From Sphingomonas sp. (GTDB lineage: Bacteria > Pseudomonadota > Alphaproteobacteria > Sphingomonadales > Sphingomonadaceae), in assembly GCF_025353885.1 (NCBI RefSeq), contig NZ_JANXNX010000115.1, forward strand, positions 1 through 64,000: a stretch of 64,000 bases of DNA, given 5' to 3'. Below are positions 1,546-17,664 of the stretch, piece after piece. The position numbers were made by a program, and so were the translations under genes. Numbering within the stretch: the stretch's first letter is position 1; each line of letters begins with the position of its first letter. The notes under the pieces are model-generated. The model did no database searches and was not told where the DNA came from. It was given only the letters and a program-made list of their open reading frames with translations.

Positions 1546-1556
1546 GCGGCCAAAGA

Positions 1557-1591
1557 TGGCGCCCGACCTGACATCACTCGATCGGGCGCCA
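1557..1591. terminator. Candidate bidirectional terminator hairpin
   Basis: Perfect 10-bp arms, TGGCGCCCGA and TCGGGCGCCA, surround a 15-base loop between the convergent TonB receptor and TetR genes. The right arm lies in the last codons of the TetR gene. There is no strong T-run on the plus strand and only TTT on the minus strand, so intrinsic termination is plausible but unproven. Confidence 0.45.
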
Positions 1592-2272
1592 CCAGCTCAC
1601 CCTGCCCGGCGCCTCTGTGACGAGGCGCTGGAACGCCTGCGCCGCAACCTGTTTGGCCTTCTCCGGCGAGACCCCAAAGCTGCCCAGAACCATCGCCGTG
1701 ACCCCCCGAATATAGGCCGGATCGCGTCCACCCGAAATGATACGGCGGATCGCTTCATGTTTGGCTCCCATCAGCAGGTCAGCCGCGAGATCGACGGAGA
1801 CCACGGTATAATCCCCCGATGTCACGCCCTTCCTGATGTCGCCCTTGACTTTGCTGGAAATCAACCCGTGCTCGCCGTCCATCAGGCCGAGGTGAGTGAT
1901 AAATCCCCCCCAGTCCGGATCGATCCAGGCCCGCGCGAGAAACGTCTGAAAACCAGTTGCCGTCCGCATTACAGGGTCGTCGAGGATATCGTAAACGTTG
2001 AAGATGTCGAAGGTCATCTGCTCGGCAAGTTCAAAAGCGAGCTGTGTCACCGCCTCGTCAAGCGTATCGAAATGCCTATAAAATGTGCCGCGGGACACTT
2101 TGGCGTGACGTACGACATCCTCGATCACGGTTGGGCCGGTCAATTTGCGGCCCGCGCACACGGTCAAGATCGACTGAAGCAGATGAGCACGCATGCGCGT
2201 ACGTCGCTCTCGCCCGACACGGACCCGGTGGTCCTCGCGGGCAGGCTCCACGGGTATCTCACCGGAATTCAT
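1574..2272 (-). CDS. TetR/AcrR family transcriptional regulator
   Basis: With the start at ATG 2272 ('MNSGEIPVEP') the protein has 232 residues. The longer track ORF (2320) would read through the palindrome at 2291-2305, so the shorter start is preferred. The N-terminal helix-turn-helix is clear: 'GPTVIEDVVRHAKVSRGTFY' followed by 'RHFDTLDEAV' is the classic TetR DNA-binding signature. The C-terminal two thirds are a helical ligand/dimer domain without a recognisable ligand class. It is transcribed away from the P450 gene across about 80 bases holding a perfect 15-bp palindrome, so it probably represses itself and the P450. The inducer is unknown. Confidence 0.88.
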   Translation of the reverse strand: MNSGEIPVEPAREDHRVRVGRERRTRMRAHLLQSILTVCAGRKLTGPTVIEDVVRHAKVSRGTFYRHFDTLDEAVTQLAFELAEQMTFDIFNVYDILDDPVMRTATGFQTFLARAWIDPDWGGFITHLGLMDGEHGLISSKVKGDIRKGVTSGDYTVVSVDLAADLLMGAKHEAIRRIISGGRDPAYIRGVTAMVLGSFGVSPEKAKQVAAQAFQRLVTEAPGRVSWWRPIE

Positions 2273-2290
2273 AATACTCACGTCATCACA

Positions 2291-2305
2291 ATGACAGATT
2301 GTCAT
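2291..2305. promoter_or_regulatory. Candidate TetR operator (perfect 6-3-6 palindrome)
   Basis: ATGACAGATTGTCAT is a perfect inverted repeat, ATGACA-GAT-TGTCAT, in the divergent region between the tetR start (2272) and the P450 start (2353). Its size and symmetry fit a TetR dimer site. It lies 18 bases from the tetR start and 47 bases from the P450 start. Confidence 0.6.
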
Positions 2306-2352
2306 CTGGATGGAAAGCAAGTGCTAACGAAGCAAAATCGAGGAGACATATC

Positions 2353-3536
2353 ATGGCTTTGATGGACCTTGTTCCAACGTTTAACGAAGATTTCTGGAGT
2401 GATGAGGTCATCCTCAATCCCTATCCGCATTATGATCGTCTGCGGGAATTGGGCCCGGCGGTATGGCTGGCGCGAAATGACGCATGGGCCTTGACCCATT
2501 TTGACTCCGTGCGACGAGCATTGCTGTCTTCGGAAGTATTTTCGTCTGCCAGCGGCTGCATGATGAACGAACCGATGAACAGCGCGAGCAAAGGAATTAT
2601 GCTTTGCAGCGACGATCCGGATCATCTTGTCATGCGCCGGTTGTTTGCCAAACCGTTGCTGCCAAAGGCTTTGAATGAGTTGCGCCCGCGTCTTGAAACT
2701 CTCGTAGGCGATAAGATCGATCAGCTTAGCAAAGTCGGCATGTTCGATGGTGTTGCCGACCTGGCTCATTTTCTGCCGCTCGCGATTGTGACCGAACTAG
2801 TCGGTCTGGACGAAGAGGGCCAAGCCCGCATGCTTGAATGGGCCGCAGCGATATTCAACGCTTTCGACCGATCGAAAACGACCGCACGGTCGACGGACTA
2901 CAAATTACTCAGCAGGTGATCAGCTATGTTCTGGAGCGGGTAGACCGGAAAACAATGGTCCCCGGGGGATGGGGCGAAGCCTTATTTCGCGCAGCAGACG
3001 CTGGTGCAATCACCGAACAAACCGCACGCATGATGCTGATCGACTATCTTACCCCATCGTTGGACACGACAATCAACGCGACCAGCGCGGCGCTCGAACT
3101 TTTTGCAGAATATCCCGATCAATGGGACCGCCTTCGTGGTGAGCCTGCGCTGATCCCACACGCCATCAACGAAATTATTCGCATGGAATCGCCGATCCGT
3201 GCATTTTCTCGTTTCGTGACGACCGACGTCGACGTGGGAGACGTTCGTATTCCCGCAGGGTCACGCGCTCTGATGCTCTACGCTTGTGCGAACCGCGATC
3301 CTGCGAAATTTATCGAGCCGACCCGCTTCGACATCACGCGCAAGCCCAGCGACCATCTCGGTTTTGGAATGGGCACCCACGTTTGCGCGGGCATGCACCT
3401 CGCCAAACTCGAAATTTCGATCATCCTGGAGGCCATGGTCGCGAAAGTCTGTCGGATCGAGGCTTCCGACCCTGTTCGGAAGCCCCATAATACATTGCGG
3501 GGACTGGCGTCGCTGCGTTGTGCGTTCCGCGCTTGA
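2353..3536 (+). pseudogene. Cytochrome P450, frameshifted
   Basis: ATG 2353 follows the ribosome site AGGAGA. The first frame runs through 'PYPHYDRLRELGPAVWL' and the C-helix region 'DPDHLVMRRLFAKPL', then leaves P450-like sequence after 'AAAIFNAF' near base 2866. The next frame resumes with 'PIENDRTVDG' and carries the I-helix 'YLTPSLDTTINAT', the ExxR motif in 'NEIIRMESPIR' and the haem loop 'FGMGTHVCAGMHLAK' with its cysteine ligand. Total length (1184 nt) is one base short of 395 codons, so a single-base deletion around 2866-2868 explains everything. All catalytic motifs are intact otherwise. It could be a real recent pseudogene or a sequencing error. Class I bacterial P450; the substrate is unknown, and no ferredoxin or reductase gene is adjacent. 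Confidence 0.88.
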
Positions 3537-3572
3537 TGCTCATCGGCACAGTTCGATGGTCCCAAGTTTTCG

Positions 3573-4667
3573 TCAGGCTGTTTGAGGGAATTTAACGGTA
3601 AAACAGGCGCCTTCGCCATCAGTGCGTCGAGCGGCGTCCAGCGTGCCACCAAGCTGCTTTGCCAGCGTGTTTATCACGCGCATTCCCAATCCCGCGTTCG
3701 CAGCTTGGGCATTGAACCCATCGACCAAACCGGTGCCTTCGTCGCAAACGATAAGCTTATTGAGGTCACCCGACGTTCGGAATGTGACGTCGATCTTGCC
3801 CGCGCCATGTTTTGCGGCGTTGGTGACCAGCTCGTTGGCGATCAATCCAATCGCCTGGATTGAGGTGGCAGGAATCATGTCCTCATCACCCGTGACGACG
3901 ATCTCACGATCCAGGATCGCCGCAAGATCATCGCAGAGCCGCTTAAGGAACGCGATGCAGGATACATTGTCGGCGACATCGGCGTAAAAGTGACGGTGAA
4001 CCTGGGCAACCGCCGCTACCCGGTTGGCGGCCAGCTTTAGGTGAGTGGCGGCCTGCTCGGCCCCGGGCGATCGGCTTTGCAGCGAAAGCAAGCTGGAAAC
4101 AAACTGCAAACTGTTCATCACTCGGTGGTCAATTTCCTTCGCCATCAAATTCGCCTTGCTCACAGCGTTCCGTGACGAAAGCCCAAGCTCAAGCTGGTCC
4201 ATGACAATCGTGGCCAGGTCCTCCAAATCTTCGATTTGCTCTTGGCCGAATGAACGCGGCTCCTTGTCGATGATGCATAAGGTGCCAAGGTTGTACCCAT
4301 CGCTTGTTGTCAGCGGCACGGCGGCGTAGAAACGGAGGCCGAAGTCCCCGGCGACCAATGGATTTGCCAAGGAACGCGGATCAATTCGCGCATCCTCGAT
4401 CAGATAGGGTACGCCGCCGAGAATGGCGGAAGCGCACAAGCCGGGTTCCCGATCGATTTGATTGACGGGCAGGCCATGATGCGACTTGAACCATATCCTG
4501 TCTTCATCGACGACACTTATGATGGCAATTGGAACCCCGAACCGCCGTGCGGCCAAGGCGGTGATCCGATCGAATGCGCCATCCGGCGGGCTGTCGAGAA
4601 TGTCATAGCGACGAACCGCCCTTATGCGCCCAGCCTCATCCGGCAATGATTTTTCTTGGATCGACAT
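3573..4667 (-). CDS. GAF-domain sensor histidine kinase, HisKA_2 type
   Basis: The start is placed at ATG 4667 ('MSIQEKSLPDEAGR'), preceded by GGGGAAG; the ORF track start at 4754 adds 29 unlikely residues. The 364-residue protein has no membrane segment. A GAF sensor domain occupies about residues 25-160 ('RRFGVPIAIISVVDEDRIWF', 'PLTTSDGYNLGTLCIID'). A HisKA_2 dimerisation segment has the phospho-acceptor in 'KEIDHRVMNSLQFVSSLL'. The ATPase domain shows the N-box 'LIANELVTNAAKHG' and 'DEGTGL'. This kinase class in alphaproteobacteria often feeds the general stress response through PhyR-like partners, but no phyR or ecfG is in the window. Cytoplasmic; the signal is unknown. Confidence 0.87.
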   Translation of the reverse strand: MSIQEKSLPDEAGRIRAVRRYDILDSPPDGAFDRITALAARRFGVPIAIISVVDEDRIWFKSHHGLPVNQIDREPGLCASAILGGVPYLIEDARIDPRSLANPLVAGDFGLRFYAAVPLTTSDGYNLGTLCIIDKEPRSFGQEQIEDLEDLATIVMDQLELGLSSRNAVSKANLMAKEIDHRVMNSLQFVSSLLSLQSRSPGAEQAATHLKLAANRVAAVAQVHRHFYADVADNVSCIAFLKRLCDDLAAILDREIVVTGDEDMIPATSIQAIGLIANELVTNAAKHGAGKIDVTFRTSGDLNKLIVCDEGTGLVDGFNAQAANAGLGMRVINTLAKQLGGTLDAARRTDGEGACFTVKFPQTA

Positions 4668-4835
4668 CGTGATCTTCCCCAGGACCCCGGGCGCTCGCCG
4701 CGCCCGTCGCATTTTCCTATTATAATAATGGCATGCGGAATCAAACCTGAACATGAACAGTGCGGTCTACGGCCGATTGATCCAACCGGAAAGCTGCCGT
4801 CCGCGGTGGCAAGATCGAATATCGATAACGGTATT

Positions 4836-5097
4836 TTAAGAGATGAAAGGCGCAACGACTTTCACGGCTTGACTGACGTAGAGTGCCTTTTCGCCCACCG
4901 GCGCGACGTAGCGCATCGCCTCCTCGGCATCGCGCATGGTTGCGCCACGGGCGATCATCCAAGTCGCGAGATACTGGGAGGCGTGGCTTCATGCGGTTCA
5001 GGATTGCCGCCGCAACGAACGAGCCCAGTTCATTGAACCCGTTGAACGTCAAAACCGCAATTTTGCAGGAACTCCTCCTCTGGCGAATGGTGAACAT
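4836..5097 (-). pseudogene. DJ-1/PfpI family remnant with internal deletion
   Basis: This sits in the otherwise gene-less 4668-5210 stretch. One minus-strand frame (about 5067-4990) reads 'KIAVLTFNGFNELGSFVAAA', the first strand and helix of DJ-1/PfpI proteins. After 'ILNRMK' the reading moves to another frame giving 'ASQYLATWMIARGATMRDAE' and 'YVAPVGEKALYVSQAVKVV', ending in TAA at 4838-4836, which matches the family C-terminus. The middle (about 120 residues, with the nucleophile-elbow cysteine) is missing. An AGGAGG ribosome site is present, but the codon where 'MKIAVL' should start is TGC. It looks like a decayed gene. The rest of the stretch shows only a possible promoter for the kinase (TATAAT on the minus strand, 4719-4724). 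Confidence 0.7.
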
Positions 5098-5210
5098 CCT
5101 ACATAGCGAAGCTGTTACGAAAGGAACGGCAGCTATTGGTTAGAAGCACATCTTTTCGACCAACGGGTTTCAGCACGCAGTAGCATACGTTTCATCGCCA
5201 TGCTCGAGAG

Positions 5211-6629
5211 TTACCTCGTCGGCAGAGCCCCACCACCTTTTACAAATTGTAAGGTCAATAATCCCGCCACCAGCAGTCCGGAGATTGGAAGGAGACCGAT
5301 CCGTTGCGACCCACTTAAATCGGTCGCAAGCTGTACGAGCAGCGGGCCGAGCCACATCGTCGCCGTTCCCGCAATGACGAACAAGCCAAAGAAAATGCCG
5401 ATCTTTTCTGGAGGCACGAGCCTGGTAAGCAAGGTACGGCTAGATGAATAAGCCGCTGTCACCGTCATGGCACCTAGGAAACCACAAACGATAAGGCCAA
5501 TTTCTGGAGCTGTTCGGAAGAGAGGGCCGTTCCACAGCGGGACGTGTGTGGTTGGGTCGTAGGCTTGGTAGAACAGCAAGTGCGGGGTGTTCCCAAGCGA
5601 TAACAATTGCGACAAGATAACGCCGGCGATCTCGAATTTGAGAGCCAGTTTCGGCCCGATGCGACCGTCCAGCCAGCCCGCGGCCAGCCCTCCAAAGACC
5701 GAGAAAATGCTTAGCAACATTCCATAAGCAAGGAGTTCAAGCGACCTCCAGCCCATGACGCCAGCCGCGTAGATTCCGGCAAATATCAGAATTCCGGTCA
5801 ATCCGTCGGTAAACAGCATTCTTGCCGCCAGATAGGTCAGCGCATCGCGATGACCACGTGCCTGACTAAACAACAATTTTAGATCGGCGATGCCCATCCG
5901 TATCGCTTTTAAGAGTCTAACTCCGGTAGCGGGAACATCGGGCACGAAACGGAACAATGGCAGAGCGCCCAACAAAAATGCGGTTCCGACCAGGATCGGC
6001 ACGATTCGATCCGGCTGATGGCTGAGGACATCAAGCCCAAACAACGGCTGCGATGGCACGAAAGCCCAGTCTACCTTCCCTGGCAGGGCGAAGGCCCACA
6101 TCACAAACGCAAGCATCATCACAGATATAAAGTTTCCGAGCGCCAAACCTAGTCCAGAGGCTGCGCCTGCGTGTTTCATGCCTGCGGCCGGAATCAACAA
6201 CGCGTTGTGAAGCGTTTCTGTATAGGAGAACAGGACCGAGATAAGTGCCAGCATCGCAACGATCAACGGCACGCTCAATCCCGATCCGTCGGATTTTGCC
6301 CACCACAGACCCATGATGAGCGGAACCATCAGCGCCACAACGGCCGCAAGCCAAGGCTTGCGAGATCCCATGCGATCGACGGTTGCACCCAACAGGGGTG
6401 CGGTCAGCATCACGCCCCATCCTGCATATTTCGCGCCGCTTGCGACGATGGCCTGCCCATGCACCGGATCCGCGATAACGCTGGTAACGAGATACGGCAC
6501 GAAAACGTAGATCGTTATCAGTATGATATAGGGATCGCGGACCCCTTGAAACAAAGCCCAGCACCAAGATGACAAGCCAAGCGTCGGATCTGACAGTTTC
6601 GGCTTATGTGACGCTGCAGGGTTGCTCAA
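5211..6629 (-). CDS. MFS transporter, UMF1-like
   Basis: The 472-residue, roughly 12-helix protein is the last gene of the minus-strand BVMO operon. The opening 'FQGVRDPYIILITIYVFVPY' resembles UMF1/Atg22-type major facilitators. The conserved cytoplasmic loop appears as 'PLLGATVDRMGSRKPWLA'. It starts with TTG at 6629, overlapping the aldehyde dehydrogenase stop (TTGA), so translation is probably coupled. Its role is inferred from context: moving the operon's substrate or product across the inner membrane. Direction and substrate cannot be read from the sequence. Confidence 0.85.
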   Translation of the reverse strand: MSNPAASHKPKLSDPTLGLSSWCWALFQGVRDPYIILITIYVFVPYLVTSVIADPVHGQAIVASGAKYAGWGVMLTAPLLGATVDRMGSRKPWLAAVVALMVPLIMGLWWAKSDGSGLSVPLIVAMLALISVLFSYTETLHNALLIPAAGMKHAGAASGLGLALGNFISVMMLAFVMWAFALPGKVDWAFVPSQPLFGLDVLSHQPDRIVPILVGTAFLLGALPLFRFVPDVPATGVRLLKAIRMGIADLKLLFSQARGHRDALTYLAARMLFTDGLTGILIFAGIYAAGVMGWRSLELLAYGMLLSIFSVFGGLAAGWLDGRIGPKLALKFEIAGVILSQLLSLGNTPHLLFYQAYDPTTHVPLWNGPLFRTAPEIGLIVCGFLGAMTVTAAYSSSRTLLTRLVPPEKIGIFFGLFVIAGTATMWLGPLLVQLATDLSGSQRIGLLPISGLLVAGLLTLQFVKGGGALPTR

Positions 6630-8089
6630 CTGGATCCCAGAACTGCAGCTACGAGCGCGGCACCCTTCGCGTATGGGGCATAAAAGGCGTCGATCATATC
6701 GCCCGTACCACGCACCACTACTCCGCGCTGGTTCGAAAACTCGCGGAATCCCTCGATGCCGTGGTGCCGTCCCATGCCGCTCATTCCCGAGCCACCGAAG
6801 CCCATTGAGGGTAGCGCGCTTTGGACCGCGCAGGTGTTCACGGCAGCGCCGCCCGAAATCGTTTTATTCAGCACTTCATGGGTCACCAGCGGATCATCGC
6901 CAAAGACGTAGAGAGCGAGAGGACGTTCGCCAGCATTGATCAGGTCAATCGCTTCCGACAAGTCGTCATATGGAATGATGGGCAGGATCGGCCCAAAGAT
7001 TTCTTCAGTCATAATTCGCAGATCGGGCGCGGGGTCAACAACCAGCGATATCGGCATCCGTCGTGTTCCGCGATCGCTGGTGGTGTCGTCTTCAAGCGTG
7101 ACGATCACTGTCTGGCGATCGGCTGCCTCGGCGAGAAGTTCGGTCAACCGGTCGAAATGACGATTGGAAATGATGCCGGTCACCTCTTGGCCGCGTGCAT
7201 AGTCGGGTGCTGCGCGCTTCATAAAAGCGGTCGCATGGTCCACAAACAACGCCAGGTCGCTGCGCGGCACAAGGGCGTAATCGACCGACACACACATTTG
7301 GCCGTTCTTGATTATTTTGGTTCCAATCACCGACTCCACATTGCCTTCTGTCACCGACCCGGGGGTGATGAGGGCAGGACATTTCCCGCCGAGTTCGAGC
7401 GTCACCGGCGTGAGGTTCTGGGCTGCGGCCATCATGACCTGGCGCCCCACATCCGGACTTCCGGTATAAAGTAAATGATCCCAGGGAAGTGTCGAGAACG
7501 CTTGCGCTAATTGCAGTCCGCCAACGGCCACATAAACCAGCGACGGATCGAACGTTGCTGTAATCATTTCGTTGAGCAGGGCGGCGCACGCTGGGGTATA
7601 TTCGGAAGGCTTGACGATAACGCGATTACCTGCGGCGAGTATTTCGACCATTGGGCCAACCGCAAGATCAAAGGGGAAATTCCACGGCACGATGTTGCCG
7701 ACCACGCCCTTGGGCTGCAATTGCACATAGGCATGAGCGTTGCCATACATGCCGGCGTCCATTTCCCGATCTTCGGGATGCATCCAGTCTTTCAGATGCG
7801 CCAGCACATATTGCGCACGCGCCACCACGCCCAGAACTTCGATCATGTCCGATGCGGGCACCGGATGTGCACCAAAGTCAGCGATCAGCGCCGCGCTGAT
7901 CCGCTCGCGATTGGCGAGCATCATGCCAATCAGTTTTTCCAGCCTTTCGCGCCGTTCGTCCAAACTTGGGTTCCGGTCGCCCGCAAAGGCGGTGCGCTGC
8001 TCATCGAATGCCCGGCGGAGCGCGACTATTTCTGTTTCGGCATTGGAGTCGGACAAGGCTGTGATGGGCTGTTGTTGCAAAAGCGACAT
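6626..8089 (-). CDS. Aldehyde dehydrogenase, coniferyl-aldehyde-dehydrogenase-like
   Basis: The 487-residue NAD(P)-dependent enzyme oxidises an aldehyde to the acid. The cofactor and catalytic motifs are intact: 'VVGNIVPWNFPF' (residues about 130-141), 'TLELGGKCPALI' with the general-base glutamate, and 'NGQMCVSVDYALV' with the nucleophilic cysteine. 'EEIFGPILPIIPYD' is also present. The N-terminal 'LRRAFDEQR..' and the C-terminal hydrophobic tail resemble the CalB/coniferyl aldehyde dehydrogenase branch, but that branch is broad and no lignin genes are near. In this operon the likely substrate is the aldehyde from the alcohol released after Baeyer-Villiger oxidation and ester hydrolysis; this is inference. 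No esterase is visible in the operon. Confidence 0.92.
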   Translation of the reverse strand: MSLLQQQPITALSDSNAETEIVALRRAFDEQRTAFAGDRNPSLDERRERLEKLIGMMLANRERISAALIADFGAHPVPASDMIEVLGVVARAQYVLAHLKDWMHPEDREMDAGMYGNAHAYVQLQPKGVVGNIVPWNFPFDLAVGPMVEILAAGNRVIVKPSEYTPACAALLNEMITATFDPSLVYVAVGGLQLAQAFSTLPWDHLLYTGSPDVGRQVMMAAAQNLTPVTLELGGKCPALITPGSVTEGNVESVIGTKIIKNGQMCVSVDYALVPRSDLALFVDHATAFMKRAAPDYARGQEVTGIISNRHFDRLTELLAEAADRQTVIVTLEDDTTSDRGTRRMPISLVVDPAPDLRIMTEEIFGPILPIIPYDDLSEAIDLINAGERPLALYVFGDDPLVTHEVLNKTISGGAAVNTCAVQSALPSMGFGGSGMSGMGRHHGIEGFREFSNQRGVVVRGTGDMIDAFYAPYAKGAALVAAVLGSS

Positions 8090-8147
8090 GATGCCAATTC
8101 CTATAATTTAAAAATGGGCCGTGCACCGCACGGCCCAAGTTGAGAAG

Positions 8148-8936
8148 CTATTGCGCAAAACCAAACATCTGGGCGCGCTCGTCGCGTACGCGTTCCGGGA
8201 ATGCTGTAACTTCCACGTCGAAATCCTTGAGTTCTGCGGGAACATACCAATGAAGTTTGTTTTCGTGATATGCAGCCCAAGTCGCTTCTGCGACGGCTGA
8301 GGGGGGCGTAAGGCGCCACATTCCTTCCTCAGGCGCCATCGCGCGCATTGTGTCGCCAAGGATTGCCGTATCGATCAACCCAGGCAGAAGGTCGGCTGCA
8401 CGCACGCCATAACGCTGGAATTCGACCGACAGCGCCTCTGTCAGACCGCGCACGGCGTGTTTCGTTGCTGAATATACCGCAATTCCCCCTGTGCCCCAGA
8501 TCGCCGACGACGAGGACGTCGTGAGGCACAGCGAACCTGGCGTCGCTTTCAGCAGAGGCATGCCGGCACGGATGCCGATCATCACACCAATCAAATTGAC
8601 GTTGATGACCTTCATCACGTCTTCCCATGATATCTCGTCGAACATGCCTTCGACGGCGATCCCAGCGTTGTTCATCAAAAGATCGAGCTTGCCCCCGGTC
8701 GCCCCCGAAAAGGCCGACATGGCGCGGGAAAATGCGTCGGCATTTGCAACATCAAGCACACCGAAATGCCCGTTATCGGCACCGATTTCACGCTCAAGCG
8801 CGTCGAGACCCGGTTGATTGACATCGAATGCGCCAACGAACCAGCCATGTTGAGCAAAAAGAAGCGCCGTTGCACGTCCCATGCCCGATGCAGCGCCAGT
8901 GATAAAAACAGATTTGCGGCCAGCAGATTTAAGCAT
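8148..8936 (-). CDS. Short-chain dehydrogenase/reductase (classical SDR)
   Basis: The start is placed at ATG 8936, preceded by CAGGAA and overlapping the monooxygenase stop by 8 bases; the track's 9086 start would run deep into the BVMO gene. The product has 262 residues. The Rossmann motif 'VFITGAASGMGRATALLF' is at the N-terminus, followed by 'NNAG', the catalytic serine in 'SSSSAIWGTGG' and the catalytic pair in 'YSATKHAVRG'. It is a cytoplasmic NAD(P)-dependent oxidoreductase, probably interconverting an alcohol and a ketone or aldehyde in the pathway (substrate ketone formation before the BVMO, or alcohol oxidation after it). Confidence 0.92.
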   Translation of the reverse strand: MLKSAGRKSVFITGAASGMGRATALLFAQHGWFVGAFDVNQPGLDALEREIGADNGHFGVLDVANADAFSRAMSAFSGATGGKLDLLMNNAGIAVEGMFDEISWEDVMKVINVNLIGVMIGIRAGMPLLKATPGSLCLTTSSSSAIWGTGGIAVYSATKHAVRGLTEALSVEFQRYGVRAADLLPGLIDTAILGDTMRAMAPEEGMWRLTPPSAVAEATWAAYHENKLHWYVPAELKDFDVEVTAFPERVRDERAQMFGFAQ

Positions 8937-10737
8937 CCTGTGATTTCCTGTTCGCTTGCGCGCCATTGAGTTCGAGTCCGGCAAAGTCTCCGTCATCCCG
9001 CCACGCACGTAGGAGAGCGATGAAAGCGATCGGTCCGGCTCCATAAGGCGAATTGCGATCGGCAACCGACGAAGCGCGGCCTTCATTGTTGTAAAAGCCG
9101 GGCGTACATTGTTCGAGAAATGACCGCCGCGCGCCGCTCATACCCATGATGGTTTTAACCCATTGCGCTTCGGCTTCTGCCGTTGCTTCGATGGTCGTGA
9201 TCCCACGGTTTCGGCATTCTTCGATTACATGGGTGAGATGTTTAGACTGCTCGTCGAGCATATGTGGAAAGTTCACCGACATGCCCGATTGCGAATGGCT
9301 GATGACAAAACAGTTCGGAAATCCTCGAGTATGAAGGCCGTGCAATGAAATCATGCCATCGGCCCATTTATCATGAAGGGCTTGCCCACCGACACCGATG
9401 ACTTCAAATCCCGAACGCTTGGAAAAATCAGTCGACGTCTCGAACCCCGTCGCGAAGATCAAACAATCAACTGGATATTCGACGCCATCGACAACCAGCG
9501 CGTTTTCCGTGATCCGCTCGACCCCCTTGCCTTGGGTATCGACAAGCGTGACGTTGGGTCGATTGAAGCTCTGCAAATACTCGTCATGAAAACAGGGTCG
9601 TTTGCAGTAAAGACTGAACCACGGCTTGAGGGCTTGCGCCGTGCGAGGGTCGTCAACGATGTCATCAATTCTGGTACGAATACGTGCCATCGTCTCAAGA
9701 TCAGCCTGCTCGAGCAGAATACCTGGATCAGCGGTTGAGTCTGCCGCGAGCTTTTCCCGAACGGCGCGTGCTAGCACCGTCCATCCGTCGCCAACCAGAT
9801 CTTCGATATGCAAATCGCCCGTAAACTGAGCGGTAAAGCTTTCGATCCTCCGCTGTTGCCAACCGGGCTGCAAGCCTTCCGCCCAAGCGGCGTCCGTCGG
9901 AGCATTGTCGCGCGCGTCGACAGACGACGGCGTCCGCTGAAAAACCAGTAACTGCTTGGCAGACCGAGCAAGGGGAGGGACGCATTGGACAGCCGTGGCT
10001 CCCGTTCCGATGATCGCAACACGCTTGTCTGCAAGATTGACAAGTGGATCGGTCCCGCTTCCCCCCGTGTAATCATAATCCCAGCGACTGGTATGAAAGC
10101 TGTGACCTGTAAAGGTTTCGATGCCCGGAATTGCAGGCAATTTGGGCCGATTAAGCGGGCCAGTCGTCAATACGACAAACCGCGCCTTCATGTCGTCGTC
10201 GCGATCAGTCTGGACCCGCCAATATTGTTCCTGGGCATCCCAGGTCATGCGCGTCACCTGTGTCGAAAAGACAGCATTGTTGTAAAGGTCGTAATGTTCA
10301 GCAATGCGCCCACAATGCTGTCGAATTTCAGCTGCTTTCGAGTAGCGTTCGACCGGCATGTAGCCGGTTTCTTCGAGTAACGGGAAATAGATGTAGCTTT
10401 CGACGTCGCAGGCCGCCCCCGGATAGCGGTTCCAATACCAGGTCCCGCCGACGTCCCCGCCGACTTCGACGATCCGCACACTTGCAATTCCGGCCTCACG
10501 AAGTCGAGCGGCTGTCAGCAGACCGCCGAACCCCCCGCCGACGACGAGCACATCAACGGTATCGCTTAGCGGTTCGCGCGGTTGATACGACGAATAGGGA
10601 TCGGCGGCCAAATGCTCCAGACCGTCGGAGATGTTCCGATATTCACGGGCACTCGCGTGCTCCCTCCGCTTGCGCTCCTCTTCGTAGCGCGCGCGGAGGG
10701 CATTGTAGTCAGTCTTTGCGGTGTCGGCCTCGGCCAT
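8929..10737 (-). CDS. Type I Baeyer-Villiger monooxygenase (flavin, NADPH)
   Basis: The 602-residue enzyme inserts one oxygen next to a ketone to give an ester or lactone, using FAD and NADPH. The FAD-binding fold shows 'VLVVGGGFGGLLTAARL'. The type I fingerprint FxGxxxHxxxW(P/D) is seen as 'FTGHSFHTSRWD'. A second nucleotide fold, 'VAIIGTGATAVQCVPPLA', binds NADPH. 'DCLIFATGFET' is the usual late motif. The N-terminal 'LRARYEEERKRREHA' helix and overall length resemble the phenylacetone / steroid / cyclopentadecanone monooxygenase branch rather than the shorter cyclohexanone type. The TAA stop overlaps the SDR start by 8 bases. Together with the TonB receptor it points to a bulky hydrophobic ketone; the exact substrate is not predictable. 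Confidence 0.93.
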   Translation of the reverse strand: MAEADTAKTDYNALRARYEEERKRREHASAREYRNISDGLEHLAADPYSSYQPREPLSDTVDVLVVGGGFGGLLTAARLREAGIASVRIVEVGGDVGGTWYWNRYPGAACDVESYIYFPLLEETGYMPVERYSKAAEIRQHCGRIAEHYDLYNNAVFSTQVTRMTWDAQEQYWRVQTDRDDDMKARFVVLTTGPLNRPKLPAIPGIETFTGHSFHTSRWDYDYTGGSGTDPLVNLADKRVAIIGTGATAVQCVPPLARSAKQLLVFQRTPSSVDARDNAPTDAAWAEGLQPGWQQRRIESFTAQFTGDLHIEDLVGDGWTVLARAVREKLAADSTADPGILLEQADLETMARIRTRIDDIVDDPRTAQALKPWFSLYCKRPCFHDEYLQSFNRPNVTLVDTQGKGVERITENALVVDGVEYPVDCLIFATGFETSTDFSKRSGFEVIGVGGQALHDKWADGMISLHGLHTRGFPNCFVISHSQSGMSVNFPHMLDEQSKHLTHVIEECRNRGITTIEATAEAEAQWVKTIMGMSGARRSFLEQCTPGFYNNEGRASSVADRNSPYGAGPIAFIALLRAWRDDGDFAGLELNGAQANRKSQDA

Positions 10738-10777
10738 TTATCGGTTCCATTTCAATCTCGTATCGGCCAAGTCTTGC

Positions 10778-13258
10778 TTAGAACGTCTTTCGCAAAGTTA
10801 CCCCGTATGTCCGAGGCTGCGTGATATAAGCGCTGTAGCTTCCCGACTGGGCCACCGTCGGAAATACCCCGATCAGCGAACGATCTTTCGTCAGATTGCG
10901 TGCCCAGACCATCACCTCGAGCTTGGAGAGCTTGTCGACAAAACCGGCGCTCGCATTCACATTGTTGATCCCCCACGTGGCGATGTTGGGAGGAGCAGTT
11001 TCGGTCAGGTAAGTATTGCTCGAATAATCATATTCGCCGCGGACATACGCGTTGAAGCGCTCGCCAAAGTCCTGAGAAATTGTCGCAGAAGCCGAAAAGC
11101 TCCATTTTGCAATGCCTGCCGGCTTTGTTCCCGAAAGGTCGCGGGATGGTGGAATGCGACCCGTGACCGGGTTCACCGGGCAGCGCGCGGTGTCATAAAC
11201 ATAGCAAGGGGCTGCCGTGAACGAGTCATATTTGGGATCGAGGTAAGTAACAGCGCCGGTCAGCGCGAGCCAGCGAACAGGAGCGTAGGCGGTATCAACC
11301 TCAAATCCGCGTACAGACTGTTTCCCGGCATTGACCAGATTATAGGCTACACCGTCGTAGGCGTTGGACTGAAATCCTTTGATGCTCTGCTTGAAGACTG
11401 CAAGATTGAAATAACCACCTTGAAACTTCGCCTTTAGACCCGCTTCGTAAACTTGCACATTTTCGGGATTGACCGTTCGACCCAACCCCTGCGCATTCGG
11501 CGGACGCGTGTTCTCGGTCAAATTGACCGCGCCCGCTTTCCAGCCTGTCGAATAGCTGACGTAGGCATTGACGAATCCAAGATCATAAGCAGCGCGAGCG
11601 GCATAAGTGACCTTGTCGCCTTTCAGAATACCGGACTCGTTTGCGTTGGGATAATTCACAGGGGCGTGGTTGGCGGTATCCCCAAAGAAGAATTGCAGAC
11701 CACCAAGCCCTCCAAAAGCGTTCACTGGCGCTCCCAAAAAGGCAAGGTTTGGAACATTCTGCAAATTCAATGACGAGAAGGGATCGTTCAACACGATATT
11801 GGCGGTCGAACGCTTGCGGTCATTAAGATAAGCGAGCCCCCCGGTCAGGGTCAGGCGATCGGTGACTTTATATTCGGCCTGGCCGAATATCGAATAAGAC
11901 CGCTGATATAGCTTGAACTGTTCCGAAATTCCCTGTCCTGCCTGGAAATAGGTGGATCCTGGAACAATGCTGGCGTTCAGGGGGATCCCAGCAAAGCCAC
12001 CGCGCTGGATAGTTTCGAGTTGTCGGATGGCGCCGCCGCTGAGCGCGTCGGCATAAGCGCGAATATCGCGACCGTAAGTAATGGCATCTGCGGAACTGAG
12101 CTTTTCATCCTGATAAAATCCACCGATCAGCCAGCTCAACGGGCCTTTTCCGTTGGACGCAAGCCTGAATTCCTGAGTGAACGTCTTTATTCTTATTGCG
12201 TCGGCGCGATTGGCGAGGTCGGCTCCGCTGAAATCGACGTCCTCGCGCGTTTGGTTTTCCTGATCCCGATAGGCCGTGATCGATGTCAGCTTTGCAAATC
12301 CAACATCGAGATCGACCTGTCCCGAGATACCCTCACCGCGCACACGATTTACCGGATCCGTATTCGCGTTGACATTGCGGTCGAAAATCCTGGCAGGATC
12401 GCTGATGCCCTTGCCCAGGCCGGCTGGAGGCGCTGCGCCGATAAACTGTGTAGCCGGGCCATTAAATATCTGGCCGACCCCGCAACAACGCTCTTTTATC
12501 AGGTTATAGTCCGCAATGACGCGAACCGAGAGCGTCGATGTCGGCTGCCACAAGACGTCGCCACGGAGCGACCAGCGATTGCGGTCGTTCTGCTTGCCGC
12601 CCGTCGTCAAGTTGTGAAGATAACCGTCCCGCTCATTGACAGTACCCGACACGCGAACCGCAAGCGTTTCGCTGATCGGTCCCGTGAACGTTCCGCGCGT
12701 CTGGATGAGGCCATAATTTCCAATGCTGGCTTCGGCCTTTCCGCCGAATTCAAACTGTGGCTTGCGCGTGACGATGCTGATCGCGCCGGCCGACACGTTT
12801 TTGCCGAAAAGCGTTGACTGGGGTCCGCGCAAGACCTCGATGCGTTCGACTTCAGGAAGGTCGTCAAGAGCCGCCGAACTGCGCGAGCGGTACACGCCAT
12901 CGATGAAAACGCCGACCGATGATTCAATGCCCGGATTGCCATTGCCGTTGCCAAAGCCGCGGATGATGAAGTTGGTCTGACCGACTGTATTGAATTGTGA
13001 GACCTTCAGCGACGGCACAACCGACTGGAGATCGATCAAATCTCGAATCTGGGCCTTTTCAAGCGTCGCCTGACTTGTGACCGAAACCGAAATTGGAACG
13101 TCCTGCAGCGTCTGTTCGCGCTTCGTGGCGGTAACGATGATATCTTCTGAGTCGCGCGCCGTGTCCGATGGTGGCGGGGCGGTCGAACTCTGGGCCAACA
13201 CTGGTGTGCTGACAGCTAGCGCAATTAGCGATACGCCCAATAGAACTGTGCCTTGCAT
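10778..13258 (-). CDS. TonB-dependent outer-membrane receptor of the BVMO operon
   Basis: The 826-residue full-length receptor starts at ATG 13258 with GGGAGAG upstream. A signal peptide ends near 'STPVLAQ'. The TonB box region reads 'EDIIVTATKREQTLQDVPIS', typical of sphingomonad receptors for organic substrates. The plug follows ('SVGVFIDGVYRSRSSAALDD', 'RIEVLRGPQSTLFGKN'), then a barrel ending in 'YGVTLRKTF' with a terminal phenylalanine. It is the first gene of a minus-strand operon with the monooxygenase 40 bases downstream. The inferred role is energised uptake of the compound the operon degrades. Confidence 0.93.
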   Translation of the reverse strand: MQGTVLLGVSLIALAVSTPVLAQSSTAPPPSDTARDSEDIIVTATKREQTLQDVPISVSVTSQATLEKAQIRDLIDLQSVVPSLKVSQFNTVGQTNFIIRGFGNGNGNPGIESSVGVFIDGVYRSRSSAALDDLPEVERIEVLRGPQSTLFGKNVSAGAISIVTRKPQFEFGGKAEASIGNYGLIQTRGTFTGPISETLAVRVSGTVNERDGYLHNLTTGGKQNDRNRWSLRGDVLWQPTSTLSVRVIADYNLIKERCCGVGQIFNGPATQFIGAAPPAGLGKGISDPARIFDRNVNANTDPVNRVRGEGISGQVDLDVGFAKLTSITAYRDQENQTREDVDFSGADLANRADAIRIKTFTQEFRLASNGKGPLSWLIGGFYQDEKLSSADAITYGRDIRAYADALSGGAIRQLETIQRGGFAGIPLNASIVPGSTYFQAGQGISEQFKLYQRSYSIFGQAEYKVTDRLTLTGGLAYLNDRKRSTANIVLNDPFSSLNLQNVPNLAFLGAPVNAFGGLGGLQFFFGDTANHAPVNYPNANESGILKGDKVTYAARAAYDLGFVNAYVSYSTGWKAGAVNLTENTRPPNAQGLGRTVNPENVQVYEAGLKAKFQGGYFNLAVFKQSIKGFQSNAYDGVAYNLVNAGKQSVRGFEVDTAYAPVRWLALTGAVTYLDPKYDSFTAAPCYVYDTARCPVNPVTGRIPPSRDLSGTKPAGIAKWSFSASATISQDFGERFNAYVRGEYDYSSNTYLTETAPPNIATWGINNVNASAGFVDKLSKLEVMVWARNLTKDRSLIGVFPTVAQSGSYSAYITQPRTYGVTLRKTF

Positions 13259-13299
13259 GTCTCTCTCCCTGTCGGTCCGGTTATCCGGTCTCGATTCAA

Positions 13300-13328
13300 T
13301 TTTTAGTGCAAACTATATTTTAGTGCAA
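13300..13328 (-). promoter_or_regulatory. Candidate promoter with 11-bp direct repeats, BVMO operon
   Basis: TTTTAGTGCAA occurs twice, at 13301-13311 and 13318-13328, exactly 17 bases apart. Read on the minus strand, the repeat gives TTGCAC (13328-13323), a 17-base spacer and TAAAAA (13305-13300), which fits a sigma-70 promoter for the TonB receptor operon. The duplicated 11-mer could equally be an activator or repressor site. Confidence 0.5.
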
Positions 13329-13329
13329 C

Positions 13330-13344
13330 CTAGAATCTTTCTAG
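13330..13344. promoter_or_regulatory. Candidate TetR operator (perfect 6-3-6 palindrome)
   Basis: CTAGAATCTTTCTAG is a perfect inverted repeat, CTAGAA-TCT-TTCTAG, just upstream of the candidate -35 element of the BVMO operon and 49 bases before the divergent tetR ORF. It has the same geometry as the palindrome at 2291-2305 but a different sequence, as expected for a different TetR protein. Confidence 0.55.
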
Positions 13345-13393
13345 TGGATTTGATTGCGTTGGGGCAGGATGCCTGTTTTAGACGATCACCGGA

Positions 13394-14029
13394 TTGGAGA
13401 TGGCTTTGTCGGACAGCGTACAGCCCGCCGTCGCGGCGAAAATCACCAAGGGTGTTTCTCGCAGCTTGAAATCTGCCGGAAAGCGCGATGCTATCATTCG
13501 CGCCGCGATTGAAATCATCAACGAAAAGAGTTTCGCGCTTGCGACCATGACCGAAATTGCCGGTAGCTTGGGAATGCGCGACGCCGCGCTTTATTATTAT
13601 TTTTCGGACAAGCAAACACTCGTTTTTGCGTGCCATGTGCGTTCGCTAGAACGATTTGAAGCTTTGCTCGCCGGCGTGGCGCACTCGAACGGCAGCGGTC
13701 TTGTAAAACTTCGGCAATTCATCAAGCACATGTTGGTCGATTCTGCAAAAAATGGACCTCAGCTGTATTTCGGCGACCACTCCTATTTGGATGCAGCAAA
13801 CCGGCAGACAATCGATACCTGGGCGGCACGCCTTACCGCTGGCCTTGAGCGTTTTATTATTGACGGAATAGAGGACGGCTCGGTGGTAGAATGCGAAACC
13901 GCGATGGTGGTTCAACTTCTTCTTGGGACACTGATCTGGCTGGCCAAATGGGTTCCTGCCGACATAACCGTTGACCGGCTAATGTCTTCAATTTCGGCGT
14001 TTGGTTTTCATGGTCTGGAAACTCGATAA
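13394..14029 (+). CDS. TetR family regulator divergent from the BVMO operon
   Basis: The product has about 210 residues. The DNA-binding domain reads 'KRDAIIRAAIEIINEKSFAL', 'TMTEIAGSLGMRDAALYYYF' and 'SDKQTLVF', a clean TetR helix-turn-helix; the 'AALYYYFSDK' variant is common in KstR/FadR-like TetR proteins that sense acyl-CoA or lipid-like ligands. The start is uncertain: TTG 13394 (track), ATG 13400 with GGAG directly abutting it, or TTG 13406 with better GGAG spacing. A palindrome and a promoter-like repeat lie between it and the TonB receptor gene, so it likely represses the operon until substrate or an intermediate is present. Confidence 0.86.
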   Translation: MEMALSDSVQPAVAAKITKGVSRSLKSAGKRDAIIRAAIEIINEKSFALATMTEIAGSLGMRDAALYYYFSDKQTLVFACHVRSLERFEALLAGVAHSNGSGLVKLRQFIKHMLVDSAKNGPQLYFGDHSYLDAANRQTIDTWAARLTAGLERFIIDGIEDGSVVECETAMVVQLLLGTLIWLAKWVPADITVDRLMSSISAFGFHGLETR

Positions 14030-14308
14030 GGCGAAGGTTTTGGAGAATGTGTGGGCCCGGCCAACGGGTCGTTACGTTTGCCAACGCATCGCGATAGACT
14101 TTACGGATAAGGACGATTATGACCGATTTTGAGCAGCAAGGAATGCTGGAGAACCGAAGGTGAAGCCCATTCCGATTGCCTCCCCCGCGCGGCTGCGCAC
14201 GTCACACCCAAATCCGATCGGCAAGTGCTTACTGATCATTGGTGGTGCTTCTGATAATGCAAGGATGTGCACCGGACACGGGTATTTTATGAACGCAGGC
14301 TGCTGTCG
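14030..14308. other. Intergenic stretch, no supported gene
   Basis: About 280 bases lie between the tetR stop and the lactonase start. Only short ORFs occur (for example ATG 14119 with 13 sense codons). No clear promoter, palindrome or known coding fragment was recognised. The change from ketone catabolism to sugar-acid genes falls here. Confidence 0.5.
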
Positions 14309-15169
14309 ATGAAAGTCGAACGGGCCTTGGCGGTCGGCGCGACGCTGGGGGAGGGGCCTGCATGGATACGCGGGGCGCTGTGGTTCGTGGATATCAAGGG
14401 GCAGTTGATCCATTGCTTCGATCCCGCGAGCGGCGCGCATCGCCAATGGGTCACCCCCGAACAGGTTGGCTGGGTCTTGCCGTCAGTGAATGACGGGATG
14501 ATCGTCGGTCTGCAGAGCGGTTTGCATCGGTTTGATCCGCGGACCGAAACGTTCACGCATTTGCATGATCCTGAGCCCGACAATCCGGGCAATCGCCTCA
14601 ACGACGGTACGACCGACGCGCAGGGGCGGCTGTGGTTCGGCAGCATGGACGATGGTCATGTCGACAAGACTGGTCGCCTGTATTCCCACAACGCTGGAAC
14701 CGTCGCCGACACCGGCCTGCCGCCAGTCCCTATCACCAACGGACCTGCGATTAGTGCCGACGCGCGAACGCTTTACCACACCGACACGCTCGCCAAGATC
14801 ATCTGGCGGGTTCCCATCCAAGACGACGGTGCGCTGGGACGGGCAGAACCGCACATTAAAATCGAGGATGGTGCCGGATATCCAGACGGATCGGTCCTCG
14901 ATGCCGAGAATTGCCTATGGACGGGCCTCTATGGCGGATGGGGCATTCGTCGCTACGATCCGGCGGGTGCACTCATCCAGACCGTTCGATTGCCGGTCTC
15001 CAACGTGACTAAGATGGCATTCGGTGGGCCGGACTTGCGCGTTGCCTATGTAACGACAGCGCGCCAAGGGCTGAACGCGCAGGCTTTGGCCGAGCAACCT
15101 ATGGCGGGCGATGTGTTCACCTTTGAGGCAGGGGTTGCCGGGGTCGCGCTCGCCGACGCGAATATTTAA
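14309..15169 (+). CDS. SMP-30/gluconolactonase-family sugar lactone hydrolase
   Basis: The preferred start is ATG 14309 ('MKVERALAVGATLGEGP'), because the family begins close to the 'GEGPAW' metal-binding motif; the track start (GTG 14267) adds 14 residues. The 286-residue six-bladed propeller shows the expected motifs: 'LGEGPAWIRGALWFVDI', 'NRLNDGTTDAQGRLWFGSMD', 'TNGPAISADARTLYHTDT' and 'YPDGSVLDAENCLWTGLYGG'. It is expected to open an aldonolactone (pentono- or hexonolactone) to the free sugar acid with a divalent metal. The next gene is a sugar MFS transporter 26 bases downstream, and a sugar acid dehydratase is nearby, so a non-phosphorylative sugar oxidation route is likely. The lactone-forming dehydrogenase is not in the window. 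Confidence 0.88.
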   Translation: MKVERALAVGATLGEGPAWIRGALWFVDIKGQLIHCFDPASGAHRQWVTPEQVGWVLPSVNDGMIVGLQSGLHRFDPRTETFTHLHDPEPDNPGNRLNDGTTDAQGRLWFGSMDDGHVDKTGRLYSHNAGTVADTGLPPVPITNGPAISADARTLYHTDTLAKIIWRVPIQDDGALGRAEPHIKIEDGAGYPDGSVLDAENCLWTGLYGGWGIRRYDPAGALIQTVRLPVSNVTKMAFGGPDLRVAYVTTARQGLNAQALAEQPMAGDVFTFEAGVAGVALADANI

Positions 15170-15195
15170 AAAAACGATAATCAAGGGAGAGCGAA

Positions 15196-16614
15196 ATGGC
15201 GACTGCCGACCAACACGGATCTGCACCCGAAACGGACAACATCGGATTCATCGCGGCAATCGTGGCTGTGGCGACGATTGGAGGGCTGTTGTTCGGCTAT
15301 GACAGTGGCGCAGTGAATGGAACGCAGGACGGATTGCGGGCGGCGTTCGCGCTCAGCGATGGTGGCCTTGGCTTCACCGTCGGATCGCTGTTGATCGGTT
15401 GCTTTATCGGGGCATTCTTTGCCGGCACGCTGGCCGACTCGATGGGGCGGCGCAATGTGATGCGCCTTGCCGCAATTCTCTTTCTGATCGGTGCGCTGAC
15501 CCAGGGCTTTGCACATGCCCACCCTCTGTTCGTCGTCGCGCGCATCTGCGGCGGTATCGCGGTCGGTGCGGCCAGCGTATTGTCGCCCGCTTATATTTCC
15601 GAGGTCGCGCCCGCCAACATTCGCGGGCGCATGACAACGGTCCAGCAGATAATGATCATCACGGGGCTGACCGCAGCGTTCGTGGTGAACTATTTCCTGA
15701 CCCAGGCGGCGGGTGCGTCGACAAGCCCATTCTGGTTGGGCATCGCCGCCTGGCGCTGGATGTACCTGATGCAGGCGATCCCGGCGTTGGTATTCCTCGT
15801 TGCCCTGTATTTCATTCCTGAAAGCCCTCGGTTCCTGGTTTCGAAGGGGCGGAATGAACAGGCCTTGATCGTGCTGGCAAAGCTGTTCGGCCCTGCTGCA
15901 GCCGCTCCCAAGCTCGACGAGATTCGGGCGAGTTTTTCGGTCGACCACCGGCCCCGGCTGTCCGACGTCCTGGCGCCGGGAACCCTATTGCGACCCATTG
16001 TCTGGGCCGGGTTATTGCTGGCGGTTTTCCAGCAGCTGGTCGGTATCAACGTCATTTTCTATTATGGTTCGACGTTATGGCAGGCGGCCGGATTTTCGGA
16101 ATCGCAAGCGCTGATGACCAATATCATCTCGGGTAGCGTGTCGATCGTCGCATGTTTCGTTACGGTCGGCCTGGTCGACAAGATCGGTCGCAAGCCTTTG
16201 CTGCTGATCGGTTCGGCCGGGATGGCGATTACGCTGTTCACGATGGTTTATGCTTTTTCCACCGGCACCCTTATCGACGGAAAGCTGACGCTACCGGGCA
16301 ATATGGGCCAGGTCGCCGTGGCTGCGGCGCTGACCTATTCGGTGATGTTCAACGTCAGCTGGGGCCCGGTAATGTGGGTAATGCTGGGTGAAATGTTCCC
16401 GAACCAGTTGCGCGGGTCGGCGCTGGCGGTTTGCGGTTTTGCCCAGTGGTTCGCCAACTACCTCGTTGCCCAATCCTTTCCGATCATGCTCGGCAGTATC
16501 GGACTGGCCAAAAGCTATGCCTTTTATGCGGTCTGCGCGACGATCAGCTTTTTCCTGGTCCAGAAGTTCATTCAGGAGACCAAGGGCAAGGAACTGGAAG
16601 CGATGGAAGGCTAA
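15196..16614 (+). CDS. MFS sugar transporter (sugar porter family)
   Basis: The 472-residue, 12-helix protein follows AGGGAGAGCGAA, a strong ribosome site. Sugar-porter signatures are present: 'GGLLFGYDSGAVNGTQDGL' in helix 1, 'GTLADSMGRRNVM' in loop 2-3, 'PESPRFLVSKGR' after helix 6, 'QQLVGINVIFYYG' in helix 7, 'VDKIGRKPLLLIG' and a C-terminal 'ETKGKELEAME'. It resembles proton-coupled galactose/arabinose/xylose/glucose symporters. It is co-directional with the lactonase and convergent with the GntR regulator, and is probably the sugar uptake step for this pathway. The exact sugar is not predictable. Confidence 0.93.
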   Translation: MATADQHGSAPETDNIGFIAAIVAVATIGGLLFGYDSGAVNGTQDGLRAAFALSDGGLGFTVGSLLIGCFIGAFFAGTLADSMGRRNVMRLAAILFLIGALTQGFAHAHPLFVVARICGGIAVGAASVLSPAYISEVAPANIRGRMTTVQQIMIITGLTAAFVVNYFLTQAAGASTSPFWLGIAAWRWMYLMQAIPALVFLVALYFIPESPRFLVSKGRNEQALIVLAKLFGPAAAAPKLDEIRASFSVDHRPRLSDVLAPGTLLRPIVWAGLLLAVFQQLVGINVIFYYGSTLWQAAGFSESQALMTNIISGSVSIVACFVTVGLVDKIGRKPLLLIGSAGMAITLFTMVYAFSTGTLIDGKLTLPGNMGQVAVAAALTYSVMFNVSWGPVMWVMLGEMFPNQLRGSALAVCGFAQWFANYLVAQSFPIMLGSIGLAKSYAFYAVCATISFFLVQKFIQETKGKELEAMEG

Positions 16615-16629
16615 CACACAACGTCCCCA

Positions 16630-16660
16630 CGCGTCACGTCGCAGTGGGCGGCGTGACGCG
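16630..16660. terminator. Candidate bidirectional terminator hairpin
   Basis: Perfect 9-bp arms, CGCGTCACG and CGTGACGCG, flank a 13-base loop between the convergent MFS and GntR genes. No T-run follows, so it may act as an attenuating hairpin rather than a classic intrinsic terminator. Confidence 0.4.
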
Positions 16661-16764
16661 GCGTCGGACCGGCGGCGGCAACCTATCGGATCAGCAGGTG
16701 TCTATGCGGTAGAAAGGGGGCGATTGTATGAGTAATCAAGCCAGAAAAGGTCCCGATATTTTGC

Positions 16765-17556
16765 CTAGAAGTCCAGCTCGATAACCGAACGCGTGTCTTC
16801 CATCGCCAGATGAACCAACTCCCGCATGGCTGCCCCCGCGCCGTCCGCATCCCCCGCAGCGATGCTTTCATAAACTCGCGCGTGATCGGGAATTGGGTCA
16901 CGCGGAAGCACGCGCATACGCTGCTTGAACTGCGTGGTCCAGTTGACGGCGGCACCGATCGACGCACTCAAAACGATCATCGCATCGTTTCTGGTCGCAT
17001 ATAGGATTGCGGTGTGAAATTCCCGGTCGGCCATGCGTCCATTCTCGGTAGCCAAAGTAAACTCGTGCATCCCGGCCAGGGCGTCGCGCATCCGCGCCAA
17101 ATCTTCCTGGTCTCGGCGCGCGGCAGCCATACTGGCCGCCGCCGGCTCGATGATGGACCGGACTTCGAACAGGCTGCGGATAAGACGCGCATCGGGTTCG
17201 CCCGTAAAGGCCCAGGTCAGGACGTCAGGGTCCAGCAAATTCCAGCGATCCCGAGGCAGGACGCGCGTTCCCGCCTTCGGGCGGCTGTGCACCAGGCCCT
17301 TGGCGGTCAGCACCTGAATGGCCTCGCGATAGGCGCAGCGGGACACGTCGAGTTCCTCGGCAAAAGCGATTTCGCCCGACAATGTGTCACCGGGTTTGTA
17401 GATGCCCGAAAGGATCGCAATCCCGATCTTGTTGGCAATCGCGCCTCTCAGGCGCCGACCGGTGGGGCGCGGTGCCAATACGGCCTGTGATGGAGTCAAC
17501 AATGCTGCGGCTTTTCCCGGAAAATTAGAAACCGACTTTGGCAACGCATCCTTCAT
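16765..17556 (-). CDS. GntR/FCD (FadR-type) transcriptional regulator
   Basis: The start is uncertain; ATG 17556 ('MKDALPKS', AGG upstream) is chosen over ATG 17571 and 17607. The product has about 263 residues. The winged helix reads 'GIYKPGDTLSGEIAFAEELD', then 'VSRCAYREAIQVLTAKGLV' and 'SRPKAGTRVLPRD'. The C-terminal FCD domain shows 'IRSLFEVRSIIEPAAASMAA', 'DREFHTAIL' and the late histidine of 'DHARVYESIAAGD', consistent with metal and carboxylate binding. FCD regulators of the DgoR/LgoR/UxuR group sense sugar acids, and it lies just downstream of a sugar acid dehydratase on the same strand, so it probably represses that pathway. Confidence 0.88.
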   Translation of the reverse strand: MKDALPKSVSNFPGKAAALLTPSQAVLAPRPTGRRLRGAIANKIGIAILSGIYKPGDTLSGEIAFAEELDVSRCAYREAIQVLTAKGLVHSRPKAGTRVLPRDRWNLLDPDVLTWAFTGEPDARLIRSLFEVRSIIEPAAASMAAARRDQEDLARMRDALAGMHEFTLATENGRMADREFHTAILYATRNDAMIVLSASIGAAVNWTTQFKQRMRVLPRDPIPDHARVYESIAAGDADGAGAAMRELVHLAMEDTRSVIELDF

Positions 17557-17664
17557 AAGCCTGTGTATCATGCAGGCGGGGCAGGGGGAACCTTGCGGCA
17601 TAACCACATATGCTGAAACGATTTTCGCGGCGGGATAGGCGAGGACGGAAGACGCGCGTTCCGG

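Follow-up and report, generated by a model that had tools for sequence, protein, structure and literature searches.

In the first 64,000 nt of Sphingomonas sp. contig NZ_JANXNX010000115.1 (hereafter the window), we identified a gene cluster for a Baeyer–Villiger monooxygenase (BVMO). With moderate confidence, we regard it as an operon that is repressed by TetR and serves the breakdown of a bulky alicyclic ketone (similar to a terpenoid or macrocycle), or of the corresponding secondary alcohol, taken up by the cell. All five co-directional open reading frames (ORFs) that a first-pass annotation had placed at 5211–13258 were found there, and Pfam confirmed their families: a TonB-dependent receptor, the BVMO, a short-chain dehydrogenase (SDR), an aldehyde dehydrogenase (ALDH) and a major facilitator superfamily (MFS) transporter. 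A divergent tetR gene and its predicted operator, which lie outside that span, belong to the same system. The features are as follows:

13394–14029, plus strand: divergent TetR-family regulator (Pfam; start TTG 13394 or ATG 13400)
13318–13335, plus strand: proposed TetR operator TTTTAGTGCAACCTAGAA (16/18 match to the site between the tetR and BVMO genes of Pseudomonas sp. MYb185)
13301–13318, plus strand: degenerate tandem copy of the operator, TTTTAGTGCAAACTATAT (differs from the motif at 3 positions; 0.03 matches expected in the window)
10778–13258, minus strand: TonB-dependent receptor for outer-membrane uptake (826 aa; Pfam Plug and beta-barrel domains)
8929–10737, minus strand: type I BVMO of the PtlE/PockeMO type (602 aa; Pfam-confirmed)
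8148–8936, minus strand: SDR (262 aa; start at internal Met 51 of the longest ORF; Pfam-confirmed)
8115–8137, minus strand: terminator-like hairpin in the SDR/ALDH gap (10-bp stem, 3-nt loop, TTTTT tail; ΔG −20.4 kcal/mol)
6626–8089, minus strand: ALDH, class-3/steroid-aldehyde-dehydrogenase-like (487 aa; Pfam-confirmed)
5211–6629, minus strand: MFS transporter with an ATG22/UMF1-like profile (472 aa; TTG start; Pfam-confirmed)

By its sequence, the BVMO is assigned to the genuine type I enzymes and not to the flavin-containing monooxygenases (FMOs) or N-hydroxylases. It carries the two BVMO fingerprints FxGxxxHxxxW[PD] (FTGHSFHTSRWD at residue 209) and [AG]GxWxxxx[FY]P[GM]xxxD (GGTWYWNRYPGAACD at residue 97) as well as two Rossmann nucleotide sites (GGGFGG and GTGATA), and a motif scan of the protein detected no FMO-type fingerprint. 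R380 and D111 are invariant in 40 sequences and align with the KR and CD positions of phenylacetone monooxygenase (PAMO). BVMO chains in the PDB scored 166–438 bits, compared to at most 44 bits for FMO chains and 25 bits for Lys_Orn_oxgnase; the best was the polycyclic ketone monooxygenase PockeMO (5mq6, 438 bits), with PAMO at 269 and steroid monooxygenase (STMO) at 244 bits. PockeMO, a fungal enzyme, is the closest solved structure (38% identity) and also the top PDB match of an AlphaFold model of the BVMO (pLDDT 85, TM-score 0.88). The best NCBIfam model was PtlE with 784 bits, which does not reach the 1100-bit cut-off of this neopentalenolactone/pentalenolactone D synthase equivalog. In a quick maximum-likelihood tree of 49 proteins, in which long outgroup branches were flagged and cyclopentadecanone monooxygenase (CPDMO) was not included, the BVMO formed a fully supported four-member clade with proteins from a second genome of the same genus (G246), Halopseudomonas and Pseudomonas sp. 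MYb185. This subclade sits within the PtlE/PockeMO group, apart from PAMO (split support 99–100). The clustering with N-hydroxylases or FMO-type enzymes that the first-pass annotation had said would speak against its assignment was not observed: the protein has the fingerprint of BVMOs but not that of FMOs, and PtlE and PockeMO are its nearest model and solved structure.

Sequence features thus assign the BVMO to the PtlE/PockeMO group of about 600 residues with an N-terminal extension. Members of this group take bulky ketones (PMC6058054), and CPDMO of Pseudomonas sp. HI-70 is counted among its longer-sequence members (PMC4052671); Pseudomonas also hosts the present subclade. Membership of this clade speaks for a bulky alicyclic ketone as the putative substrate. 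The earlier placement in a large-substrate branch holds insofar as this is a bulky-ketone branch, but it had lumped phenylacetone, steroid and macrocyclic ketone types, whereas the enzyme groups with PtlE and PockeMO and apart from PAMO.

The overlaps of 8 bases between BVMO stop and SDR start (ATGCTTAA) and of 4 bases between ALDH stop and MFS start (TTGA), both noted earlier, are present and recur exactly in G246 (L034), which has all five genes in identical order and a BVMO of 80% identity. The BVMO/SDR overlap is 4 bases long in Halopseudomonas and Pseudomonas sp. MYb185. Gene order and overlaps that recur in G246, together with a BVMO/SDR overlap in both Pseudomonadaceae relatives, argue for a conserved arrangement and against chance or an accident of ORF calling. 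Among 301 genomes of the family, only the source genome (G000) and G246 have a close BVMO ortholog. Halopseudomonas sabulinigri, among the next closest in named genomes, encodes BVMO-SDR-ALDH (65–66%), and MYb185 encodes BVMO-SDR, followed by DUF1302, DUF1329 and MalT/LuxR-type genes, with ALDH and TetR in a divergent arm. A Pseudomonadaceae-wide ortholog search yielded hits in 3 of 399 genomes, two of which were already known, while the third is only 51% identical. Relatives of about 51% identity are common in other sphingomonads, mostly without this gene order, and therefore say little about the operon. A plasmid of Sphingomonas panacis carries a looser analogue, comprising a BVMO (48%), TonB receptor, SDR, ALDH, 3-hydroxyacyl-CoA dehydrogenase and alpha/beta hydrolase; SMP-30 and IlvD/Edd genes are also found near this plasmid BVMO. 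We found no paper that treats BVMOs together with TonB receptors in sphingomonads, and none that treats them together with DUF1302/DUF1329.

The other four proteins fit an uptake and oxidation role, as had been read from the DNA before. The SDR scored 314 bits with NCBIfam model NF006123 (cut-off 261) and has the motifs TGAASGMG, NNAG and YSATK; its orthologs (66–81% identity) adjoin the BVMO in three other genomes. The ALDH has the motifs GQMC and ELGGK, and its best PDB match and nearest solved relative is 9nxl (329 bits), annotated as a steroid aldehyde dehydrogenase, with class-3 ALDHs next (245 bits). The MFS protein matched PF11700 with 86 bits and MFS_1 with 38 bits, and has an ortholog of 73% identity at the same place in G246. 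The TonB receptor is 70% identical to the G246 copy, 57–62% to a paralog in the C41 locus and 42% to a paralog in a second operon (C33). Close to the C41 paralog (L160 10308–12917) is a small ribosomal-protein-like ORF, which is also found beside receptor homologs in further genomes of this genus; the operon receptor thus looks like a recruited duplicate. The G+C content of window positions 1–14000 is 0.55–0.58, about 5 points lower than in the remainder of the window, where it is mostly about 0.60; the step falls close to where the tetR gene ends. Just downstream of the orthologous module in G246 are IS110-type and IS240/IS6-type transposase genes (L034 8193–9879). The lower G+C content and the transposases would suit horizontal gain.

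The divergent tetR gene and the operator-like motif conserved between it and the cluster point to TetR control of the operon through a predicted operator. The motif TTCTAGTGCAASCTAGAA, an 18-bp imperfect palindrome, occurs in four TetR-linked regions, namely those of the window, G246, the C33 operon and MYb185. With MYb185 as reference, the summed match of the window and C33 sites is 31/36, which was reached by none of 1000 dinucleotide shuffles (maximum 27). The TetR protein is 70% identical to its G246 ortholog, 56% to that of MYb185 and 54–57% to the C33 paralog. TetR orthologs among the family genomes are confined to G000 (two) and G246 (one), the same two genomes that have the close BVMO ortholog.

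The C33 operon (L158 7789–16877) encodes the paralogous TetR and TonB receptor, a Vgb-lyase-like lipoprotein with a CMMCH motif, a pyrroloquinoline quinone (PQQ) dehydrogenase and a type-B carboxylesterase, and probably belongs to the same regulon or to a sister regulon. The earlier statement that no esterase is present is true for 5211–13258 and for window ORFs of at least 200 aa, but not for the wider system: one of two strong type-B carboxylesterase matches in the source genome is in the C33 operon, and in MYb185 a type-B carboxylesterase gene adjoins the ALDH gene in the divergent arm. The two enzymes are only 33% identical and not clear orthologs; read by eye, each has a signal peptide or lipobox at its N-terminus. 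The BVMO depends on NAD(P)H, carries no export signal and is expected in the cytosol. As the esterases look extracytoplasmic, they more likely de-esterify an incoming compound than open a cytosolic product. The fumonisin B1 esterase was the third-listed PDB match of the C33 esterase. The fumonisin fum cluster, which includes the FumD esterase, is alike in outline in that it combines a sphingomonad receptor with a type-B carboxylesterase; it is not known to include a BVMO.

In the reaction order that we infer, the TonB receptor would carry the compound over the outer membrane and the MFS protein would move it, or a product, over the inner membrane. The SDR would interconvert alcohol and ketone, and the BVMO, with NADPH and O2, would insert oxygen beside the carbonyl to give an ester or lactone. 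A hydrolase encoded elsewhere would open the ring or ester, after which the ALDH would oxidise the aldehyde to the acid. TetR would repress the operon via the tandem 18-bp operators until substrate or product binds to it. More tentatively, both loci may form one regulon under a single TetR operator. Its periplasmic arm (receptor, carboxylesterase, PQQ dehydrogenase and Vgb-like protein) would strip an esterified bulky natural product and then oxidise it, in a PQQ-dependent step, to the ketone. The cytosolic arm (MFS, SDR, PtlE-type BVMO and ALDH) would break the ring, and the compound class would be new to this BVMO clade.

Several observations weigh against TetR control of a single operon or of both loci. 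The match between the window and C33 motifs alone is not significant (13/18, reached by 293 of 400 shuffles), so that the link between them runs via MYb185 (15/18, reached by 7 of 400 shuffles). Genome-wide, a degenerate operator pattern with two mismatches allowed was unspecific (4 matches versus 11 for the reversed control). G246 has one TetR only and no C33-type receptor at E ≤ 1e-100 in a genome that is about 90% complete, and Halopseudomonas has BVMO-SDR-ALDH but no such TetR. The five genes had also been described as tightly coupled, and the overlaps behind this are real, but the strong hairpin with its T5 tail in the SDR/ALDH gap makes a single operon less certain: the five genes need not all be co-transcribed, and the hairpin could uncouple ALDH-MFS, which may lower their expression here. 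It is not found in G246 (13-nt gap) or Halopseudomonas (11-nt gap).

Alternative explanations concern the substrate, the purpose of the pathway and the enzyme that opens the BVMO product. The ALDH, closer to the steroid enzyme 9nxl than to any class-3 ALDH, suggests steroid catabolism, with the BVMO lactonising or cleaving a keto-steroid and the ALDH serving as a steroid side-chain aldehyde dehydrogenase. A precedent is the pdc cluster of Caenibius tardaugens, in which a catabolic BVMO encoded beside a tetR gene cleaves the progesterone side chain (PMC12239570). That BVMO is reported to be 30% identical to STMO and comes with a luciferase-like enzyme, and no TonB-SDR-ALDH-MFS set has been described for it. 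We consider a steroid substrate unlikely: KshA_C (PF19298), the canonical 9,10-seco marker, had no match in the 98%-complete source genome, which disfavours canonical steroid-ring degradation, and the nearest BVMO clade is PtlE/PockeMO, with STMO far below PockeMO in score. A role in biosynthetic or detoxifying tailoring, comparable to that of PtlE in pentalenolactone biosynthesis, rather than in growth catabolism appears improbable. PtlE is the best named family model, and a pentalenolactone cluster has a 52% homolog beside MFS and dehydrogenase genes, but the score is far under the PtlE cut-off, a TonB receptor leads the operon, no terpene or prenyl synthase was recognised near it, and the MYb185 relative lies beside carboxylesterase and DUF1302/DUF1329 genes.

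Direct hydrolysis of the BVMO product by the C33 carboxylesterase, i.e. ketone to ester to alcohol and acid with the pathway split over two loci, is rather doubtful. It would make use of a type-B enzyme whose operon has a paralogous TetR and a similar operator, and whose counterpart is physically beside the orthologous module in MYb185; the signal peptide or lipobox of these esterases, however, separates them from a BVMO that should be cytosolic, and their low identity leaves orthology unclear. It is highly improbable that the SMP-30/gluconolactonase encoded at 14267–15169 opens a BVMO lactone. This gene, of a lactonase-type family, is on the same strand as tetR and about 240 bp downstream of it, yet it is the first gene of a sugar-acid set (sugar MFS, GntR/FCD regulator and IlvD/Edd dehydratase; window 14267–19461) past the G+C shift at 14 kb, and is not in the module of MYb185, Halopseudomonas or G246 contigs. 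A catabolic operon for a bulky alicyclic ketone or alcohol remains our preferred reading.

On the other side of the operon, a cytochrome P450 gene (window 2362–3536, plus strand), the only P450 match found in the genome, is split by a frameshift (frames change near 2838–2919) and is either a pseudogene or an assembly error. It was rejected as an operon partner because of the frameshift and because another tetR gene adjoins it (1574–2320, minus strand); a truncated TonB receptor gene (49–1545) is also located beside it. Contig C17, which has 30 bases in common with the start of the window, encodes an FAD hydroxylase, an FAA hydrolase and a glyoxalase-fold dioxygenase and is probably the neighbouring catabolic block.

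The system is of a known kind, to which this analysis chiefly adds the operator, the intra-operon hairpin and a candidate second locus. The pentalenolactone D synthases PtlE, PntE and PenE belong to the same type I BVMO group of about 600 aa (about 52% identity), but are part of biosynthetic actinomycete clusters with a terpene synthase, whereas the present BVMO is part of an uptake and oxidation operon. The bpf cluster for bisphenol F in Sphingobium yanoikuyae DN12 likewise belongs to a sphingomonad and combines a BVMO with a hydrolase that opens the ester, but its substrate is an aromatic diaryl ketone and BpfC, reported at about 45.7 kDa, is smaller than this BVMO (PMC12724174).

The native substrates of most BVMOs are not yet established. 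For a BVMO subclade that has its own repressor and a compact operator, the inducer, and hence the substrate, should be findable by simple TetR ligand screens, and the shared operator points to a second locus to be included in such tests.

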